The position numbers and the translations under genes were made by a program. A stretch of DNA of 64,000 nt from assembly GCA_039683095.1 (NCBI GenBank), contig JBDKSB010000001.1, positions 62,001 to 126,000 on the forward strand, in the 5' to 3' direction. This DNA is from Acidobacteriota bacterium. GTDB taxonomy: Bacteria; Acidobacteriota; Aminicenantia; Aminicenantales; Saccharicenantaceae. The notes under the pieces were generated by a model. That model had not been told where the DNA came from. It did no database searches and worked only from the letters and a program-made list of their open reading frames with translations. This document shows positions 46,786 to 56,336 of the stretch, in pieces. Each line of letters starts with the position of its first letter. Positions within the stretch are counted from its first letter, which is position 1.

Positions 46786-47895
46786 ATGAAAGTCGCTTTG
46801 CTGTATAGCTCGAAGGCCGGCATGGAGGCCACTCTCTCCTGCCGCCGCGACGAGCACAAGGACGAGGAGGACGAGCCTCCACTGCCGAACGACATGCTCG
46901 CCGAGTGCGACTCGGACGAGACGATCGCCGCGGTCGGGCATGCTCTCCAGGAACGACACCAGGTCCTCTTCATCGAGTCCGATGAGAAGGCCTACGGCCG
47001 GCTGAAACGCCAGCGCCCGCACCTGGTCTTCAATATCGCCGAGCGCGTCATCGGCCCCAACCGCGAATCGCACATCCCGACCGTCTGCGAGATGCTGGAC
47101 ATCCCCTACACCGGATCAGACCCGCTGACGCTCGGCATCTGCCTCGACAAGTCGCGGGCCAAGGAGATCCTGTCCTACCACCGGATCCCCAACCCGGCCT
47201 TCTGGATCGTCGAGTCGGCCGCGGCCATCCCGGCGAGCGTGCGCCTGCCGGCCATCGTCAAGCCGCTGACCGAGGGCTCGAGCAAGGGCATCAAGAACAA
47301 TTCCCTCGTCCGGACGCTGGGCGAGCTCTACGAGCGCGTCGACGAGGTCGTGACGGCCTACAAGCAGCCGGTCATCGTCGAGCGGTTCCTGGCCGGCCGC
47401 GAGTTCACGGTCGGCGTCCTGGGCAACGCGCCGAACTACGAGGTCCTGCCCATCGTCGAGATCGATCACGGCCAGCTCCCCGCCGGGGCGGCCCCCATAT
47501 ATTCCTATGAGGCCAAGTGGCTCTGGGACACGAGGGAAAAGCCCCTCGAGATCTTCAAGTGCCCGGCGCCCATCCCCGGCGTCCTCCAGGCCAAGATCGA
47601 GGACATCGTCGCCCGGACCTGCGCGGTCCTGCGCATCCGGGACTGGTGCCGGGTCGACGTCCGGCTCGACGAGAAGGGCGAGCCCAACATCCTCGAGGTC
47701 AATCCGCTGCCGGGCATCCTGCCCCGCCCCGAGGACAATTCCTGCCTGCCCAAGGCGGCCCGGACCGCCGGGTATTCCTATTCGGACCTGATCCACAGGG
47801 TCGTGGAGGAGGCCGCCAAGCGCTGCGGCCTCCGTCAAACGCGCGTCCGGCCCGCGGCGAGCGAACGGCCGGCGGTCCTCGCGGATCGTGCATGA
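46786..47895 (+). CDS. ATP-grasp ligase 1 (D-Ala-D-Ala ligase-like)
   Basis: ATP-grasp enzyme of 369 residues that should form an amide or peptide bond through an acyl phosphate. N-terminal VALLYSSKAG, then LPAIVKPLTEGSSKGIKNNS (ATP-binding lysine and loop), VIVERFLAGREFTVGVLG, and the magnesium site DVRLDEKGEPNILEVNPLPGILP are typical of the Ddl group. An acidic insert (RRDEHKDEEDEPP near residue 20-33) is not in housekeeping Ddl. No mur or fts gene is nearby. It is the first gene of a four-gene unit with a second ATP-grasp enzyme, so a cell-wall role is unlikely. Stop overlaps the next ATG (ATGA). Confidence 0.85.
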   Translation: MKVALLYSSKAGMEATLSCRRDEHKDEEDEPPLPNDMLAECDSDETIAAVGHALQERHQVLFIESDEKAYGRLKRQRPHLVFNIAERVIGPNRESHIPTVCEMLDIPYTGSDPLTLGICLDKSRAKEILSYHRIPNPAFWIVESAAAIPASVRLPAIVKPLTEGSSKGIKNNSLVRTLGELYERVDEVVTAYKQPVIVERFLAGREFTVGVLGNAPNYEVLPIVEIDHGQLPAGAAPIYSYEAKWLWDTREKPLEIFKCPAPIPGVLQAKIEDIVARTCAVLRIRDWCRVDVRLDEKGEPNILEVNPLPGILPRPEDNSCLPKAARTAGYSYSDLIHRVVEEAAKRCGLRQTRVRPAASERPAVLADRA

Positions 47896-48926
47896 TCCCA
47901 GCCCCAACGATCGCCATCGTCTTCAACGCCTACGAACCGAGACCGACAGCGGCGGCGGAGCGTTTGTCGGAGGAGTCCGTGGCGGAGATGGCCCAGCAGG
48001 CGCACGACGCCGTTCGCTCGCTGGGGCTCGGCGCGACGCTCATCCCGCTGCAGAGGAGCCTGCTCAACTTCGCCGGCCGGATCCGGGAGGTCAACCCGGA
48101 CGTGCTGATCAACCTCTGCGAGGGCTACTACGGCCGGCCCCAGTGGGAATCGAACGTGGCCGGGATCTTCGAGCTCATGAGCCTGAGCTTCACCGGGAGC
48201 GCGGCCAAGACCCTGGCCTTCTGCCAGGACAAGTTCAAAGCCAAGGCCGTGCTCCGCGCGGCCGGGCTGCCGACGGCGCCGGCCCAGCTCATGATCACCG
48301 GGGACGAGCCCCTGGAGCTGCGCTTCCCGCTCATCGTCAAGCCCAACGCCGAGGACGCGAGCCTGGGCATCTATCCTCACTCCGTCGTCCGGGACGAGCC
48401 GGCGCTGCGGCAGCAGGTCCGGCGCTGCCTGGACAATTATCGGCAGCCGGTCCTGGTCGAGGCCTTCATCGACGGCCGGGAGTTCAACGTCTCGGTCATG
48501 GAGGACGGCGCGGTGACGCCGCTGCCGGTCTCCGAGATCGATTTCTCGGCCTTGCCCAAGGACATGCCGCGCATCCTCGGCTACGAGGCCAAGTGGTTCG
48601 AGGACAATCCGCTCTACCAGAAAACCCCGCCCATCTGCCCGGCGCCGATCGACGACGAGCTCCGGGCCAGGCTCCAGGGACTGGCCGCCGCGGCCTTCCG
48701 GACCATGGGCTGCCGGGACTACGCGCGGGTGGATTTCCGCATGGACGCCAAGGGCCGGCCGTTCATCCTCGAGGTCAATCCCAATCCCGATATCAGCACC
48801 AACGCGGGGTACGCCCGGGCGCTCAAGGCGGCCGGGATCGAGTACGCCGGGTTCTGGAGCGTCATGGTGCAGAACGCCCTGGCCAGGAAGGTCGTCAATG
48901 ATCCGGCGGATGCAGGCGGGCGATAA
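47892..48926 (+). CDS. ATP-grasp ligase 2 (D-Ala-D-Ala ligase-like)
   Basis: Second ATP-grasp enzyme, 344 residues. It shares with its neighbour the CQDKFKAKAVLRAAGLPTAP segment type, FPLIVKPNAEDASLGI, VLVEAFIDGREFNVSVM, and the metal site VDFRMDAKGRPFILEVNPNPDIS. Both retain the catalytic-looking residues, so both are probably active, one for each bond or each substrate. The N-terminal domain reads IAIVFNAYEPRP. Start is the ATG at 47892, coupled to gene 1 by ATGA; its own end overlaps the GNAT gene by 29 bases. The preserved RE motif (GREF) in both suggests they are duplicates that diverged in substrate. Confidence 0.85.
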   Translation: MIPAPTIAIVFNAYEPRPTAAAERLSEESVAEMAQQAHDAVRSLGLGATLIPLQRSLLNFAGRIREVNPDVLINLCEGYYGRPQWESNVAGIFELMSLSFTGSAAKTLAFCQDKFKAKAVLRAAGLPTAPAQLMITGDEPLELRFPLIVKPNAEDASLGIYPHSVVRDEPALRQQVRRCLDNYRQPVLVEAFIDGREFNVSVMEDGAVTPLPVSEIDFSALPKDMPRILGYEAKWFEDNPLYQKTPPICPAPIDDELRARLQGLAAAAFRTMGCRDYARVDFRMDAKGRPFILEVNPNPDISTNAGYARALKAAGIEYAGFWSVMVQNALARKVVNDPADAGGR

Positions 48927-49371
48927 GGCGGCCGTGCTCGGGCTCGTCCGGGCCACGGGCTTCTTCACGGAGCCCGAGGTCGTCGTGGCCGAGGAGCTCA
49001 TCGACGTTTTCCTCGACCGGCCCGAGCAGAAGGATTATGACGTCGTGGTGGTCGAGGACCAGGCCGGGGCGCCGGCCGGCTATCTGACCTGGGGCCCGAC
49101 GCCGCTGGCCGAGGACGTTTACGACCTCTACTGGATGGCCGTGGCGCCTGCCCAGCAGGGCCTTGGCCGCGGCAAGGAGATGGTCCGCTGGCTCGAGGCC
49201 GAGGTCGGCCGCCGGAACGGGCGGCTGATCCTCATCGAAACCTCGTCGCAGCCGAAGTACCACGGCACGCGGCAGTTCTATATCGGTTTGGGGTATCGGG
49301 AGGTCGCCCGGGTGCCCGATTATTACCGGCCCGGCGACGATCGCGTCATATACGCGAAGTATCTTCGTTAG
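48898..49371 (+). CDS. GNAT-family N-acetyltransferase
   Basis: Acetyl-CoA-dependent N-acetyltransferase of 157 residues, a single GNAT domain. The CoA pyrophosphate loop is VAPAQQGLGRGKEM (motif A) after the strand YDLYWMAV, and motif B lies near TRQFYIGLGYREVARVPDYY. It overlaps the upstream ligase by 29 bases and precedes the aminomutase by 5, so it belongs to the same unit. It may acetylate an amino group of the product of the ligases or of the aminomutase. A related pairing, lysine 2,3-aminomutase with an acetyltransferase, makes N-epsilon-acetyl-beta-lysine in methanogens, but that acetyltransferase (AblB) is longer. Confidence 0.85.
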   Translation: MIRRMQAGDKAAVLGLVRATGFFTEPEVVVAEELIDVFLDRPEQKDYDVVVVEDQAGAPAGYLTWGPTPLAEDVYDLYWMAVAPAQQGLGRGKEMVRWLEAEVGRRNGRLILIETSSQPKYHGTRQFYIGLGYREVARVPDYYRPGDDRVIYAKYLR

Positions 49372-49376
49372 GAGTC

Positions 49377-50495
49377 ATGGAGATGGACGACTGGCAACGA
49401 CTGCTCAAAGGCGCTCTCAGGAAGCCCGAGGAGATCGCCCAAAAGTTCGGTCTTGACGTCGAGGAGGTCCGCCGGATCGCCAAGGTGTTCAAGATCCAGA
49501 TCACGCCCTACTATGCCGGGCTGATCAAGGAGCGGGGCGACGCCATGTGGCGCCAGATGGTCCCCGATCCGGCCGAGCTGAAGGAGGACACGGGGGTGGC
49601 CGACCCGCTCGAGGAGGACGCCGATTCCCCGGTGCCGAGCATCGTTCACCGCTATCCGGACCGCTGCCTGTTCCTTGTCTCGCACAGCTGCGCCTCGTAT
49701 TGCCGCTTCTGCACGCGGAAGAGGAAGGTCGGCGATCCGTCGAAGATCCACCCGCGCTACATCGAGGACGGGCTCGCCTACATCCGGGCCCACGAGGAGA
49801 TCCGCGACGTCATCGTCTCGGGCGGCGACCCGCTCATGCTCAGCGATCGCCGCCTCGAGGCGATCATCAAGGGCCTCCGGGCCATCCCGCACATCGAGAT
49901 CATCCGCATCGGCACGCGCGTGCCCTGCGTCCTGCCTCAGCGGGTCACCGAGAAGCTCGCGGCCATGCTCAAGAAGTACCACCCGCTCTACGTCAACGTG
50001 CATTTCAACCACCCCGACGAGATCACGCCGGAATCGTCCCGGGCCCTGGGCCTGCTGGCCGATGCCGGCATCCCGCTGGGGAACCAGACCGTGCTGCTCA
50101 AGGGCGTCAACGACGACCCTCTGGTGATGCGCCGGCTCATGCAGAAGCTGCTGTCCGTGCGGGTCCGGCCCTACTACATTTACCAGGCTGACTACGTCTC
50201 GGGGACCGAGCACCTGCGGACGAGCGTCGAGAAGGGACTCGAGGTCATGGAGAACCTGCGCGGCTGGACCTCCGGATTGGCCGTGCCCTACTACTGCATC
50301 GACGCGCCTGGAGGCGGCGGCAAGATCCCGCTCCTGCCGAAATACCTGCAGTCCATCACCGACGAGCAGGTCGTCCTGCGCAATTACGCCGGCGAGTTGT
50401 TCGTCTATCCGCAGGTGAAGACCAAGCCGAAGCGCCGGCCCCGGCCGGCCGTCGCCCCCTGCTACAGCTTCGAAGGCGGCCCCCCGATGCCATGA
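49377..50495 (+). CDS. kamA: Lysine 2,3-aminomutase-like radical SAM enzyme (KamA family)
   Basis: A 372-residue PLP- and SAM-dependent aminomutase. The cluster cysteines are C105, C109 and C112 (CASYCRFC), and the PLP lysine is K316 in DAPGGGGK. Two aspartates that bind the substrate side-chain amine in Clostridium lysine 2,3-aminomutase (D293 and D330 there) have counterparts here in YQADYVSG (D272) and CIDAPGG (D309); glutamate 2,3-aminomutase has Lys and Asn at these positions. The likely reaction is L-lysine to beta-lysine. The enzyme is shorter than Clostridium KamA (416) and longer than EpmB (342); beta-lysylation of EF-P is an alternative role, but no epmA is nearby. Confidence 0.88.
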   Translation: MEMDDWQRLLKGALRKPEEIAQKFGLDVEEVRRIAKVFKIQITPYYAGLIKERGDAMWRQMVPDPAELKEDTGVADPLEEDADSPVPSIVHRYPDRCLFLVSHSCASYCRFCTRKRKVGDPSKIHPRYIEDGLAYIRAHEEIRDVIVSGGDPLMLSDRRLEAIIKGLRAIPHIEIIRIGTRVPCVLPQRVTEKLAAMLKKYHPLYVNVHFNHPDEITPESSRALGLLADAGIPLGNQTVLLKGVNDDPLVMRRLMQKLLSVRVRPYYIYQADYVSGTEHLRTSVEKGLEVMENLRGWTSGLAVPYYCIDAPGGGGKIPLLPKYLQSITDEQVVLRNYAGELFVYPQVKTKPKRRPRPAVAPCYSFEGGPPMP

Positions 50496-50655: not shown

Positions 50656-52845
50656 TTATCTCAGCGATTCCAGGTACTTGCCCAGGCCGGCCGCTTTCAC
50701 GATGGCCAGCGTCTCCTCGCCGCCGAGGCCCCGCTTCTCCTTGAGCGACTCGAGGATGCGGATGATCGAGAAGGCCACCTCGGCCGTCTGTCCCCCCTCC
50801 GCCTGCCGGTCCTTGAGATAGGAGATGGCGTCATACAGGACGGCGTTGGCTTCGCCATAGCTGACGGGGTCCCGAGAGCCATGGGCCGCGACCCACTTCG
50901 GCGTGCCGAGGATGTCGTTGACGTGCGACTGGATGAGGTAGGTGGCCCGGCCGATGAGCTTGAGGTTGCTCGGGCTGACGTTGGTCATGGTGTTCCCGAC
51001 GACCTTGCCCAGCTTGGCCATGACCGCGGTCGAGTGGGCGTTGAGAAGCATCTTGGCCGCCATCTGCTGGCGCAGGCCGAAAGGATCGGCTTCGGCCCGG
51101 ACGGACACCGGCACCGCCACGAGCCGGCCGGCCGCGCCCGCCCAGCGTCGCCGGACCCGCTCGGCGAGCTCCGGGAACTCCTTCGCCGGCCGGGCGGAGA
51201 GGATGATGACGCCGGCGTCGGCGCCCCCCGCCGCGGCCAGCCGCAGGACCTTGACGAACGAGGACCCGGGATCGTCGAAGGCCCGGTCCTCCGGGGTCAT
51301 GGCGACGAGGACGCACAGATCGCCCTTCTTCGGCCCCCGGCCCTCCGTGTTCGCGTCGGACAGCGAGAAGTCGTAGAGCCCGGCCTGATCGTCGCCCGCC
51401 TTCTTCAGGCTCTCGAGGGCCGCCCGCCGCAGGTACGGGTCCGCGACCTCTGTCTCGAACGGCTGCCGGTAGATCTCCGCCTTCAGGCCCCGGAAGGGGC
51501 GGCCCAGGAAGGCGCGCCAGGCCTCCGCCGGGGTCGCGGCCTTCGTCCAGACCTGGATCCAGCACTTCCTCTTCGGCTCCCGGACCGTGTCCAGCGGCGC
51601 CAGCCGGAAGGTCGGGCTCCGCTCGGTGCTGTCGATGAACACGGTGATCAGGCCGCGCTCGGCGTAATAGGTCGAGAAACGCCCGCCGGCGTAGGCGGCC
51701 GCCTCGAGATCGGTCAGGGCGGCCAGCTCCGGCAGCGCCGCCCGGGCCCCGGCCAGTACGCCGCTGAAATCGGCCAGCCTGGCCGCGACGCTCGTCCCGC
51801 CCCGGGACCGGCCGCCGGCGAAGCCGAGCTTCTCCATGTCCCGCGGGCCGAGGACGGGCGCCAGGACGCGCTCCACCGCCGTTTCGACGATGGCCGCCAC
51901 GACGTACGTTTCGATCGTCGTGGCCTGCATCCGCGTCGAACCGGTGATGGCCTGCGGCCCGGTCGTCAGGTTGATCTTGGTGATGCCCGGCTCGGTCAGG
52001 ACGCTCCGGCTGCGGTCGAAGGGCATCAGCCGCTCGTCGGGGTTGTTGTAGACGAAGTAGAGCTTCTTGCGGCTCTCGGCGGGATCGTACCCGGGTTCCG
52101 CCTTCCACTCGTCGAGCGCGGCCAGCACGGTCCCGATGACCGATGAAGTCTCCCCGCCTTCGGTGACGCAGATGACAACGTCGCCCTTGGCCACGCCCCG
52201 GTCATGGAGCTGGAGCCGCCCGATGAGCTGCAGGTCCTCGAAGCCCTCGAGCGAGCTGATGAGGGCCCGGTCCGCGCCGGTCATCTCGCCGACGAGGCCG
52301 GCCTCGATCCCGTCTTTCGCCGGGAGGCGTCCGGCCGCCTTCTTCCAGATCCGGGCGTCGGCCTTGACCGCGCGCCAGAAGGGGCGCCAGAAGGCGCTCT
52401 CCATCTGCTTGGCCAGCCGCCCCGTCGCGCCGCAGCCGTAGATGTAGATCTTCCGGCCGCCGAGGATGGCCGTCTCGACCGCCCGGGCCGCCTGTTCAAG
52501 CGCCTCGGGCGCCGCGGCCAGCTCCTCCAGCCTGGCCAGGACGTCGTCGTCGACCGACGAGAGCATGCGCAGCCCGGCCTGGGTGTCCTCGCGGACCCGT
52601 TCCCCGAGGTACCAGGTTTTTGGATGCCGCTGCTCGGTCAGAAGGGTGTGCAGCTGGAACTGGGTCTTGTTCTGGACATAATCGACGGACTCGGCCGACG
52701 GCTCGATCCCCAGCAGCTTGAGCAGCCCGCCCGGGGGCGCGCCCGCCGCCTGCCGGTCCTGCCCTGCGCCTGCCGCCAGCCCGCCGCCCAGCAGGACCGC
52801 CGCGGCCGCCGCCAGCCAGAAGCTCCTCTTGGCCCGGGCGGACAT
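50656..52845 (-). CDS. Exported double-SIS-domain protein (MurQ/GckR-like)
   Basis: A 729-residue protein with an N-terminal signal peptide (MSARAKRSFWLAAAAAVLL, cleaved near residue 26). Two sugar isomerase (SIS) modules follow, roughly 110-340 and 430-660. The first contains IYGCGATGRLAKQMES, VICVTEGGETSSVIGT and GPQAITGSTRM, which match MurQ (MurNAc-6-phosphate etherase) and glucokinase regulatory protein; the C-terminal part ends TMTNVSPSNLKLIGRATYLI, similar to the MurQ helix. Length and double-SIS layout are closest to GckR. Export is unusual because the known ligands are cytoplasmic sugar phosphates. ATG at 52845 is five bases past the dCMP deaminase stop. Confidence 0.75.
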   Translation of the reverse strand: MSARAKRSFWLAAAAAVLLGGGLAAGAGQDRQAAGAPPGGLLKLLGIEPSAESVDYVQNKTQFQLHTLLTEQRHPKTWYLGERVREDTQAGLRMLSSVDDDVLARLEELAAAPEALEQAARAVETAILGGRKIYIYGCGATGRLAKQMESAFWRPFWRAVKADARIWKKAAGRLPAKDGIEAGLVGEMTGADRALISSLEGFEDLQLIGRLQLHDRGVAKGDVVICVTEGGETSSVIGTVLAALDEWKAEPGYDPAESRKKLYFVYNNPDERLMPFDRSRSVLTEPGITKINLTTGPQAITGSTRMQATTIETYVVAAIVETAVERVLAPVLGPRDMEKLGFAGGRSRGGTSVAARLADFSGVLAGARAALPELAALTDLEAAAYAGGRFSTYYAERGLITVFIDSTERSPTFRLAPLDTVREPKRKCWIQVWTKAATPAEAWRAFLGRPFRGLKAEIYRQPFETEVADPYLRRAALESLKKAGDDQAGLYDFSLSDANTEGRGPKKGDLCVLVAMTPEDRAFDDPGSSFVKVLRLAAAGGADAGVIILSARPAKEFPELAERVRRRWAGAAGRLVAVPVSVRAEADPFGLRQQMAAKMLLNAHSTAVMAKLGKVVGNTMTNVSPSNLKLIGRATYLIQSHVNDILGTPKWVAAHGSRDPVSYGEANAVLYDAISYLKDRQAEGGQTAEVAFSIIRILESLKEKRGLGGEETLAIVKAAGLGKYLESLR

Positions 52846-52850
52846 CGGCC

Positions 52851-53366
52851 TCAGTCCTTCCCGTACTGGCGCTCGTCGTCGAGGATGTCGCGGGCCTGCC
52901 AATCCCGGATCCAGTCCTCGACGCTGAAGACCTGGGCCCCGCCCCCGGCCGCCGAGCAGACGACCCGGCCGAGGCCGCAGTTGACGATCATCTTCTTGCA
53001 GATGAAGCAGGGGAGGGCGTTGATCGGCTTCTCGCCCTCCGGCTCGCTGCCGTAGATGTACATGTCCCCTCCGAGCAGGCTGACCCCGGCCCGGGCCGCG
53101 TTGATGATGGCGTTCTGCTCGGCGTGAACGCTGCGGCAGAGCTCGTAGCGCTGGCCGTGGGGGATGGCCAGCCGGTCCCGCAGGCAGAAGCCGTGCTCGA
53201 GGCTGTCCTTGGTCTTCCGGGGCGCGCCGACGTAGCCCGTCGAGATGATCTGGTCGTCCCGGACGATGATGGCCCCGATGGACCGCCGGAAACACGTGCT
53301 CCGGCGCGAGACCTCCTTGGCGATGCCCAGGTAATACTGGTCCTTGGACGTTCTCTGCGGCCTCAT
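52851..53366 (-). CDS. dCMP deaminase family protein
   Basis: Zinc-dependent cytidine/deoxycytidylate deaminase of 171 residues. The catalytic HAEQN and the zinc cysteines in PCFICKKM are intact, with GAIIVRDDQIISTGYVGAPRK before them as in ComEB/dCMP deaminase. Deamination of dCMP yields dUMP for thymidylate synthesis. The C-terminus extends with VFSVEDWIRDWQARDILDDE. ATG at 53366 overlaps the stop of the kinase gene (ATGA). The neighbour is a nucleotide-kinase-like protein, which supports a role in deoxynucleotide supply. Confidence 0.88.
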   Translation of the reverse strand: MRPQRTSKDQYYLGIAKEVSRRSTCFRRSIGAIIVRDDQIISTGYVGAPRKTKDSLEHGFCLRDRLAIPHGQRYELCRSVHAEQNAIINAARAGVSLLGGDMYIYGSEPEGEKPINALPCFICKKMIVNCGLGRVVCSAAGGGAQVFSVEDWIRDWQARDILDDERQYGKD

Positions 53367-53908
53367 GCGACCTCCTCGAGCTTGCGCTGGAATTCTGCCA
53401 GGGTCCCGTCGTTGACGATCAGGCGGTCGGCCGCCGCCAGGCAGGCCTCGAGCTGCTGGGCCCCGGCCCCGCCGGCCCGCTCCTGGCCCTCTTTCTTCCG
53501 GAAGGTCTCGAGATCGCCGGCCGATTCGTCCCGGCCCCGGCGCGCCGCCCGGGCGAACCGCAGCTCGATCGGCGCGTCGATGGCCAGCAGGAGGAAGCCC
53601 TCCTGGCGCCGGAGGAACTCGATCTCGCGCAGGTTGCGGATGCTGTCGATGACCGCCCGCTCGCCAGGACCGATCTTGGCCATCGTCCGCCGGGCCAGGA
53701 CGTCGGGGCCGAAGCTGCGCCGCAGATCGTTGCCGGTCCGGATGAGGTTGTCCCGGCTGGCCGGCTCGCCCCGCCGCGCCAGCTCCTCCCGGATGACGTC
53801 GGACAGGGAGTGATAGGCGTAGCCCCTGGTCCCGAAATAGGCAGCGGCCTCGCCCTTGCCGGCCCCGTTCGTGCCCGTCAATCCGATCAGCCGCGGCGGC
53901 ACGGTCAT
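53363..53908 (-). CDS. AAA-type nucleotide kinase (dephospho-CoA/dNMP kinase-like)
   Basis: P-loop NTPase of 181 residues with Walker A GLTGTNGAGKGEA (residues 9-21), then a YHSLSDVIREELARRG lid region and a C-terminal DRLIVNDGTLAEFQRKL. The fold pattern is that of NMP kinases; the nearest look is dephospho-CoA kinase-like AAA proteins of archaea and T4-type deoxynucleotide kinases. The gene lies between aldehyde dehydrogenase and dCMP deaminase, overlapping each by four bases (ATGA), so a deoxynucleotide monophosphate kinase is a reasonable guess. Substrate not shown by sequence. Confidence 0.7.
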   Translation of the reverse strand: MTVPPRLIGLTGTNGAGKGEAAAYFGTRGYAYHSLSDVIREELARRGEPASRDNLIRTGNDLRRSFGPDVLARRTMAKIGPGERAVIDSIRNLREIEFLRRQEGFLLLAIDAPIELRFARAARRGRDESAGDLETFRKKEGQERAGGAGAQQLEACLAAADRLIVNDGTLAEFQRKLEEVA

Positions 53909-55559: not shown

Positions 55560-56336
55560 TCAGCCGGCCTGCTCCGTCTCCTTCCGGCGGGCCTTGTCAC
55601 GGCGGCGGCCCACCACCAGGGCGATCAGGATGCCGAGGCCGTACAGGAGGATCATCGGGACGGCCACGATGCTCTGGGTGATGGCGTCCGGCGTGGGCGT
55701 GATCACGGCGGCGAGGACGAAGGCGGCCAGGACGGCGTACTTGAAGTTGCGGACCATCCAGCGGGCCGTGACCAGGCCCATCTTGGCCAGGAAGTAGATG
55801 ATCGTCGGCAGCTCGAAGACGGCGGCGATGCCGAGGAGGACCTTGAGAGCGAAGCCCAGATAGTCGTCGGCCTTGATGACCGGCTGGAAGTCCGAGCCGA
55901 GCTGAATGAAGAAGCGGCAGGCCCAGGGGAAGACGATGAAGTAGCCGAAGGCCGCGCCGAGCAGGAAGAAGACGGTCGTCATGAACACGAAGGGGATGAC
56001 GTACTTCTTCTCTTTCTGGTAGAGCCCCGGCGCGACGAAGTACCAGATCTGGAGGAAAATGAACGGCGACATGATGAAGAGGGAGGCCAGGAAGCCGACC
56101 TTCATGTAGAGCATGAACGGCGCGGTCAGGCCCGTGTAGGCGAGCTTGGCGCCTTCGGGCAGATACCGGGTCACCGGCCGGGCCAGGATCTTGAAGATGT
56201 CCTTGGCGAAGATCCAGCCCGGGACGAACCCGAGGATCAGGGCCAGGATGGCGTAGAAGAGCCGCTTCCGGAGGTCCTCCAGATGCTCGAGGAAGGTCAT
56301 CTCGTCAGGAGATTTTTTGCCCTTCCCCAGTCCCAT
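55560..56336 (-). CDS. tatC: Sec-independent protein translocase TatC
   Basis: Central membrane component of the twin-arginine translocase that binds RR signal peptides. The 258-residue protein has six helices and the family motifs MTFLEHLEDLRKRL at the start (the conserved HLxELR region), FVAPGLYQKEKKY and the helix-4 glutamate segment. Its start overlaps the 3' end of tatA by 32 bases. A Tat substrate is encoded in this window (Gfo/Idh/MocA oxidoreductase at 21578-22849). No tatB is separately seen; the upstream TatA-like protein may serve both roles, as in minimal Tat systems. Confidence 0.95.
   Translation of the reverse strand: MGLGKGKKSPDEMTFLEHLEDLRKRLFYAILALILGFVPGWIFAKDIFKILARPVTRYLPEGAKLAYTGLTAPFMLYMKVGFLASLFIMSPFIFLQIWYFVAPGLYQKEKKYVIPFVFMTTVFFLLGAAFGYFIVFPWACRFFIQLGSDFQPVIKADDYLGFALKVLLGIAAVFELPTIIYFLAKMGLVTARWMVRNFKYAVLAAFVLAAVITPTPDAITQSIVAVPMILLYGLGILIALVVGRRRDKARRKETEQAG

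Follow-up and report, generated by a model that had tools for sequence, protein, structure and literature searches.

A predicted exported double-SIS protein of the MurQ/GKRP kind in Candidatus Aminicenantes and its possible role in MurNAc salvage

Described SIS proteins closest to the locus

MurQ (TIGR00274; PDB 4lzj, 4s12, 1nri), the MurNAc-6-phosphate etherase of cell-wall recycling, is a protein of about 300 amino acids with one SIS domain, and its mechanism needs an open-chain sugar. Because MurNAc can open its chain without a phosphate, a MurQ-type reaction on MurNAc itself is conceivable. GKRP (PDB 4bb9, 3w0l, 4lc9) binds phosphosugars and combines two SIS domains with a lid. NamZ, relevant here as a possible source of MurNAc, is an exo-N-acetylmuramidase. 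NagS, the Streptomyces GlcNAc-6-phosphate dehydratase (PDB 9eol), is a MurQ-related, homodimeric single-SIS protein with a phosphorylated substrate and serines at the phosphate site. According to its published description, the site of NagS is built from both subunits, the essential arginine being supplied by the other subunit, and loss of the phosphate-site serines is tolerated (PMC12680351). For mycobacteria, two reports describe an unidentified lactyl etherase that would act on MurNAc without MurQ (PMC6572805, PMC13041923); according to the second, a 2026 preprint, neither the enzyme nor the place where GlcNAc is released is yet known. In the open-licence literature, neither an exported double-SIS protein or other exported SIS enzyme nor an etherase for unphosphorylated MurNAc was found.

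The window, the whole stretch of 64,000 nucleotides analysed here, belongs to a Candidatus Aminicenantes genome of 3.29 Mb in 13 contigs and encodes a double-SIS protein (Table 1), both halves of which match MurQ. It shares the GxGxxGR, EGxED, GSTRM, KxxLNxxST and N-K helix motifs with MurQ, but has 729 amino acids, two SIS domains, a predicted signal peptide and, instead of the serine-containing phosphate loop AASGRT, the sequence TEGGET. The arrangement of two SIS domains plus lid is common to GKRP and the window protein along the whole chain, whereas the latter is bacterial and predicted to be exported; we know of no glucokinase partner for it. Its C-terminal half also matches NagS (Z 13.2), from which it differs in the NagS features given above.

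Table 1. Features of the double-SIS locus, in window coordinates.
Feature	Coordinates	Strand	Basis
Exported double-SIS protein CDS (predicted export)	50656..52845	minus	ORF read, 729 aa plus stop
AAGGA, Shine-Dalgarno-like, within 3' end of upstream gene	52855..52859	minus	sequence read
Signal-peptide-like segment, residues 1-27	52765..52845	minus	hydropathy and conserved hydrophobic segment; cleavage site putative
SIS-1 loop 1 GCGATGR, residues 137-143	52417..52437	minus	aligned with MurQ GAGTSGR
SIS-1 LEGFED, residues 199-204	52234..52251	minus	aligned with MurQ VEGAED; E200 in 48/49 A1 rows
SIS-1 loop 2 TEGGET, residues 228-233	52147..52164	minus	aligned with MurQ phosphate loop AASGRT
GSTRMQ, residues 302-307	51925..51942	minus	aligned with MurQ GSTRMK
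SIS-2 DSTERSPTF, residues 405-413	51607..51633	minus	in register with MurQ DASECPPTF; proposed catalytic Glu408
KMLLNAHST helix, residues 598-606	51028..51054	minus	strongest similarity stretch to MurQ and GKRP
Upstream neighbour, dCMP-deaminase-like	52851..53357	minus	ComEB profile 65.1 bits, below cut-off
Next upstream neighbour, small nucleotide-kinase-like	53363..53902	minus	PRK08356 profile 70.5 bits, below cut-off

Fold, start codon and export signal

An AlphaFold model of residues 28-729 (49-row alignment; mean pLDDT 89.0, pTM 0.90) revealed two SIS domains and a helical lid. The best solved structure along the whole chain was GKRP 4bb9 (Z 33.3, 519 residues, rmsd 3.1, 17% identity, model residues 29-702), which Foldseek also ranked first. 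The N-terminal half matched MurQ 4m0d with Z 22.5 over 219 residues, and the C-terminal half, modelled alone (pLDDT 88.3), matched MurQ 4lzj best (Z 20.7, 270 residues, 22% identity), above other SIS structures. Both the two SIS modules and the resemblance to MurQ and GKRP, as claimed in an earlier note made on this DNA, are supported by these model-based comparisons, GKRP being the match over the whole length and MurQ that of the C-terminal half.

In a PDB sequence search, MurQ 4s12 was at the top (9e-10), followed by a weak GKRP match. MurQ profiles were the top-scoring named families, although TIGR00274 scored 75.2 bits, in several pieces, and did not reach its cut-off of 302. Within the SIS domain family (PF01380, PF13580), Pfam SIS_2 and SIS stayed below their cut-offs as well (25.6 versus 27 and 12.2 versus 25), the SIS fold itself being present in the model; GKRP_SIS_N gave 21.2 bits (cut-off 27), a threshold passed by five of seven relatives tested. 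An ordinary MurQ is ruled out by profile score, length and loop. Family and fold are well supported: the protein is an apparently relocated member of the MurQ/GKRP kind, outside MurQ proper and not a new fold, and from the model we take it to consist of two MurQ-like units fused in one chain.

The ATG at 52845 lies 5 nt past the stop of the upstream dCMP-deaminase-like gene, and the AAGGA sequence ends 9 nt before it. The earlier note had named a start codon downstream of the signal as the observation that would speak against export. A sequence scan revealed no in-frame ATG, GTG or TTG between this ATG and codon 94, and since codon 94, the next in-frame start, falls inside the conserved core, such a downstream start has no candidate and a wrong start codon is ruled out.

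The N-terminus, MSARAKRSFWLAAAAAVLLGGGLAAGAGQD, resembles a Sec signal, and residues 9-27 form the most hydrophobic 19-residue window of the whole protein. Among relatives, whose start codons were assigned by a rule set in this analysis, two forms occur. The conserved core starts about 40 residues after the start codon in the exported form, preceded by a hydrophobic segment, versus 3-12 residues in the cytosolic form (15 longer relatives). Median pairwise identity in 46 exported-clade sequences was 0.15 in the N-terminal extension versus 0.61 in the core; 45 of the 46 extensions contain a 15-residue stretch with a mean hydropathy of at least 1.6, and 45 beat shuffles of themselves at p ≤ 0.05. 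The sole exported sequence without the stretch, L012, has an earlier in-frame ATG and TTG that would include one. Two cytosolic labels are ambiguous: an upstream in-frame extension of L101 contains a hydrophobic stretch, and L110 has two candidate starts, each with a Shine-Dalgarno-like sequence, one of which gives a hydrophobic N-terminus.

The signal at the true start, as judged by hydropathy and conservation, is well supported and puts the protein among the predicted Sec-exported ones. The clear signal peptide noticed earlier holds in the form of a predicted export, and we infer from the sequence a location outside the cytoplasm, probably the periplasm. Tat export was set aside, as MSARAKRSFWL is without a twin arginine by eye. 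A TatC-like ORF, named by eye, lies upstream of the gene at 55560-56336. A homologue with 66% identity (L082, contig MGST01000356.1, on a scaffold labelled Deltaproteobacteria) has a lipobox-like N-terminus (LTATSC, by eye), which would be a different way of getting out of the cytoplasm.

It is very unlikely that the protein is instead a cytoplasmic stand-in for MurQ on MurNAc-6-phosphate, its N-terminal segment being uncleaved or no export signal. Long relatives without the segment do exist, and L004, dropped before the 46 sequences were counted, encodes the hydrophobic stretch with no ATG, GTG or TTG ahead of it. The segment is, however, kept as a hydrophobic stretch and not as a sequence, the lipobox-like N-terminus of L082 takes its place there, and AnmK is missing from the related genomes described below.

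Relatives, neighbouring genes and cell-wall sugar genes

Homologues are present in 88 of 99 related genomes, some as fragments only, and at E ≤ 1e-10 there are matches in 39 of 396 genomes drawn from the phylum, that in G271 being to a MurQ-like protein. Both forms occur together in five genomes (G061, G085, G091, G092, G093), the second copy of G085 having lost its N-terminus at a contig end. From 77 start-mapped sequences, nine were dropped, namely L004, L005 and L098 (no start in the search range), L080, L081 and L082 (cut by contig ends) and L075, L099 and L103 (unknown residues), and the remaining 68 were thinned to 58. Alignment A1 holds 49 of these, the nine omitted having mostly GTG or TTG starts (L006, L030, L046, L060, L074, L101, L105, L108, L109); A2 holds 46 of the A1 rows. 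The 58 sequences and nine further loci make up the 67 rows of a tree by a quick method, with the N-terminal extension left out and the root set on six shorter relatives that were judged cytosolic by eye. All 46 exported rows fell into a single clade among cytosolic relatives (SH-aLRT 100), and one change of state is enough to explain export on this tree.

The gene neighbourhood was compared in 87 loci, with counts that include loci fetched twice. In 15 exported loci the gene directly 3', in the same orientation, is NamZ (PF07075, PF20732); in L110 it precedes the double-SIS gene. A sodium:solute symporter (PF00474) lies 3' of 12 cytosolic-type loci (10 distinct), on the same strand and within 100 nt, and beside no exported-clade locus of the 87. 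Each of the two neighbours was confirmed by Pfam in three loci and assigned by BLAST clustering in the rest. By coordinates, NamZ is beside the double-SIS gene in at least 19 of the 99 genomes, with at least 18 in one family of the order plus G098 in another order, and with G071 counted on a gene fragment alone. Most exported loci, the window included, have no NamZ alongside. With the export signal mapping to one clade and the neighbour differing between NamZ (exported) and an importer (cytosolic), the family provides a natural experiment.

The dCMP-deaminase-like gene is upstream in 47 of the 87 loci. In the window, it and the kinase-like gene (52851-53902) match the back and front of an NCBIfam antiphage dCTP deaminase profile at 52.9 and 33.2 bits, far below cut-off, and could belong to ordinary nucleotide metabolism. 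On the plus strand, at 46786-50495, two tandem ATP-grasp ORFs like D-Ala-D-Ala ligases stand in a row with one GNAT-like and one lysine-2,3-aminomutase-like ORF (by eye), possibly a cluster related to beta-lysine.

Searches of the 99 related genomes revealed neither MurQ (E ≤ 1e-20) nor AnmK (E ≤ 1e-5) in any of them, the positive controls being matched. NamZ was found in 92 of the 99; because 8 of the 11 genomes lacking the double-SIS family have it too, and it was not found in four that contain the family (G001, G010, G041, G054), its presence alone is uninformative. Co-occurrence was dropped as evidence, both NamZ and the family being near-universal.

The NamZ of the window genome is unlinked, on another contig (L156 7842-9185). 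A GH3 protein (L161 841-2610) is closest to beta-N-acetylhexosaminidase, below cut-off. Since both have lipoprotein-like N-termini by eye, the release of peptidoglycan sugars may take place outside the cytoplasm. An enolase-superfamily ORF on another contig (L159 174-1403), closest to L-Ala-D/L-Glu epimerase below cut-off, has a Tat-like N-terminus by eye. A MurK-type kinase was set aside for this genome on the grounds that its clear BadF-family (PF01869) match is a CoA-dehydratase activase; PF01869 also gave one weak match, on C8.

Active-site motifs and proposed reaction

The two motifs that the earlier note had assigned to the SIS modules, GSTRM (residues 302-306) and TEGGETSS (residues 228-235), are present, but both lie in the N-terminal SIS domain and not one per module. 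SIS-1 carries 28 extra residues near the MurQ DASE position, and profile alignment revealed no counterpart of MurQ DASECPPTF in this domain. For SIS-2, hhalign aligned DSTERSPTF with the MurQ motif at E 0.058 over 14 columns, which for a local match by itself is insignificant; aligning the C-terminal half globally gave the same register, and in the model the motif closes a predicted helix preceded by a strand. E408 and R409 are invariant in all 49 A1 rows; L109, outside A1, is without even the D..ER pattern. The glutamate of MurQ DASExPPTF is catalytic; the comparison also draws on the roles of MurQ Glu83 and Glu114 and on the ligand residues of GKRP.

Counting from Ser54, the essential NagS arginine would be at the position of MurQ Glu83. 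Given that the NagS site draws on both subunits, a fused pseudo-dimer would need the SIS-1 loops together with the SIS-2 glutamate for one site. The motif distribution looks as if one composite MurQ site had been kept, made of the SIS-1 sugar loops and the SIS-2 motif DxxExxPTF, in a geometry that we infer.

TEGGET in place of AASGRT argues weakly for a ligand without phosphate. The loop is no proof of such a ligand, because GKRP also has a glycine in the phosphate-loop position and NagS tolerates loss of its phosphate-site serines.

Strict patterns for loop 1, EGFED, TEGGET and DxxERxPTF were surveyed in 72 sequences, near-duplicates included (the 67 tree rows plus L095, L097, L098, L099 and L106). 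All four motifs are kept in 42 of 47 exported sequences and lost jointly in the other five (L091, L093, L096, L097, L109), the EGFED change in L093, L096 and L097 being F to W only. Loop 1, TEGGET and DxxERxPTF are present in all 19 long cytosolic and all six short sequences, and EGFED in 17 and six of these, respectively. Four of the five motif-less copies sit in genomes that also have a cytosolic-type copy, as if they were redundant; the genome of the fifth, G088, shows no such copy, and in G093, which has both forms, the exported copy is intact.

The four motif-less copies in two-form genomes (L091, L093, L096, L097) still adjoin NamZ, and their retention counts against redundancy as well as against an etherase. 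It would suit a non-catalytic, GKRP-like sugar sensor that regulates or helps a partner, for instance NamZ, as would the rank of GKRP as the closest whole-chain structure. We consider such a sensor unlikely, seeing that the residues proposed for catalysis and those of the loops hardly vary in most rows, that the motifs of both SIS domains vanish jointly and not singly, and that no glucokinase-like partner was found beside the gene.

The reading we prefer, which has in our view an even chance of being right, is that the protein works in the periplasm as a lactyl etherase, its substrate being unphosphorylated MurNAc that NamZ has set free; location, substrate and reaction are all conjectural. 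The exported, fused MurQ pseudo-dimer would retain one composite site, with sugar-binding loops from SIS-1 and E408 from SIS-2, and NamZ acting outside the cytoplasm would supply MurNAc. From the open-chain form of this free sugar, D-lactate would most likely be removed by beta-elimination, and addition of water would then give GlcNAc. The cytosolic relatives beside the symporter would perform the same reaction after import. MurNAc without phosphate is favoured because NamZ is linked, because neither MurQ nor AnmK was found in the 99 genomes and because the phosphate loop is altered. Among the ligands considered in the earlier note (an exported phosphosugar, a cell-wall fragment or a non-phosphosugar), it is thus a combination, a cell-wall sugar without phosphate, that is preferred; nothing was found for an exported phosphosugar.

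That the protein acts on some other envelope sugar, for instance an amino sugar, a sugar of muropeptides or an exported phosphosugar, or catalyses a different SIS-type reaction such as isomerisation or a NagS-like dehydration, appears rather unlikely. SIS proteins are diverse in substrate, the 28 extra SIS-1 residues alter the pocket, and most exported loci are not beside NamZ; NagS itself is related to MurQ and catalyses another reaction (PMC12680351). Against this stand the MurQ profiles as best-scoring named families, the fit of the C-terminal half to MurQ above other SIS structures and the linkage to NamZ, which points to MurNAc.

For Aminicenantes as a whole, the preferred etherase reading leads to a kinase-free, extracytoplasmic MurNAc salvage, which we propose tentatively: exported NagZ-like and NamZ enzymes would free MurNAc, and the exported fused MurQ with its one composite site would convert it to GlcNAc and lactate. 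If true, this would provide both an SIS enzyme that is exported and a lactyl etherase whose substrate is MurNAc without phosphate, neither of which surfaced in the open-licence literature searched. The family offers a concrete, expressible candidate for a MurNAc etherase activity, and it is of interest for the possible descent of GKRP-like pseudo-dimers from MurQ.

Shorter relatives of about 500-720 amino acids as open frames (L141 to L147) were found in other Acidobacteriota families. They form a separate deep branch, in which TEGGET and DxxERxPTF are also present.
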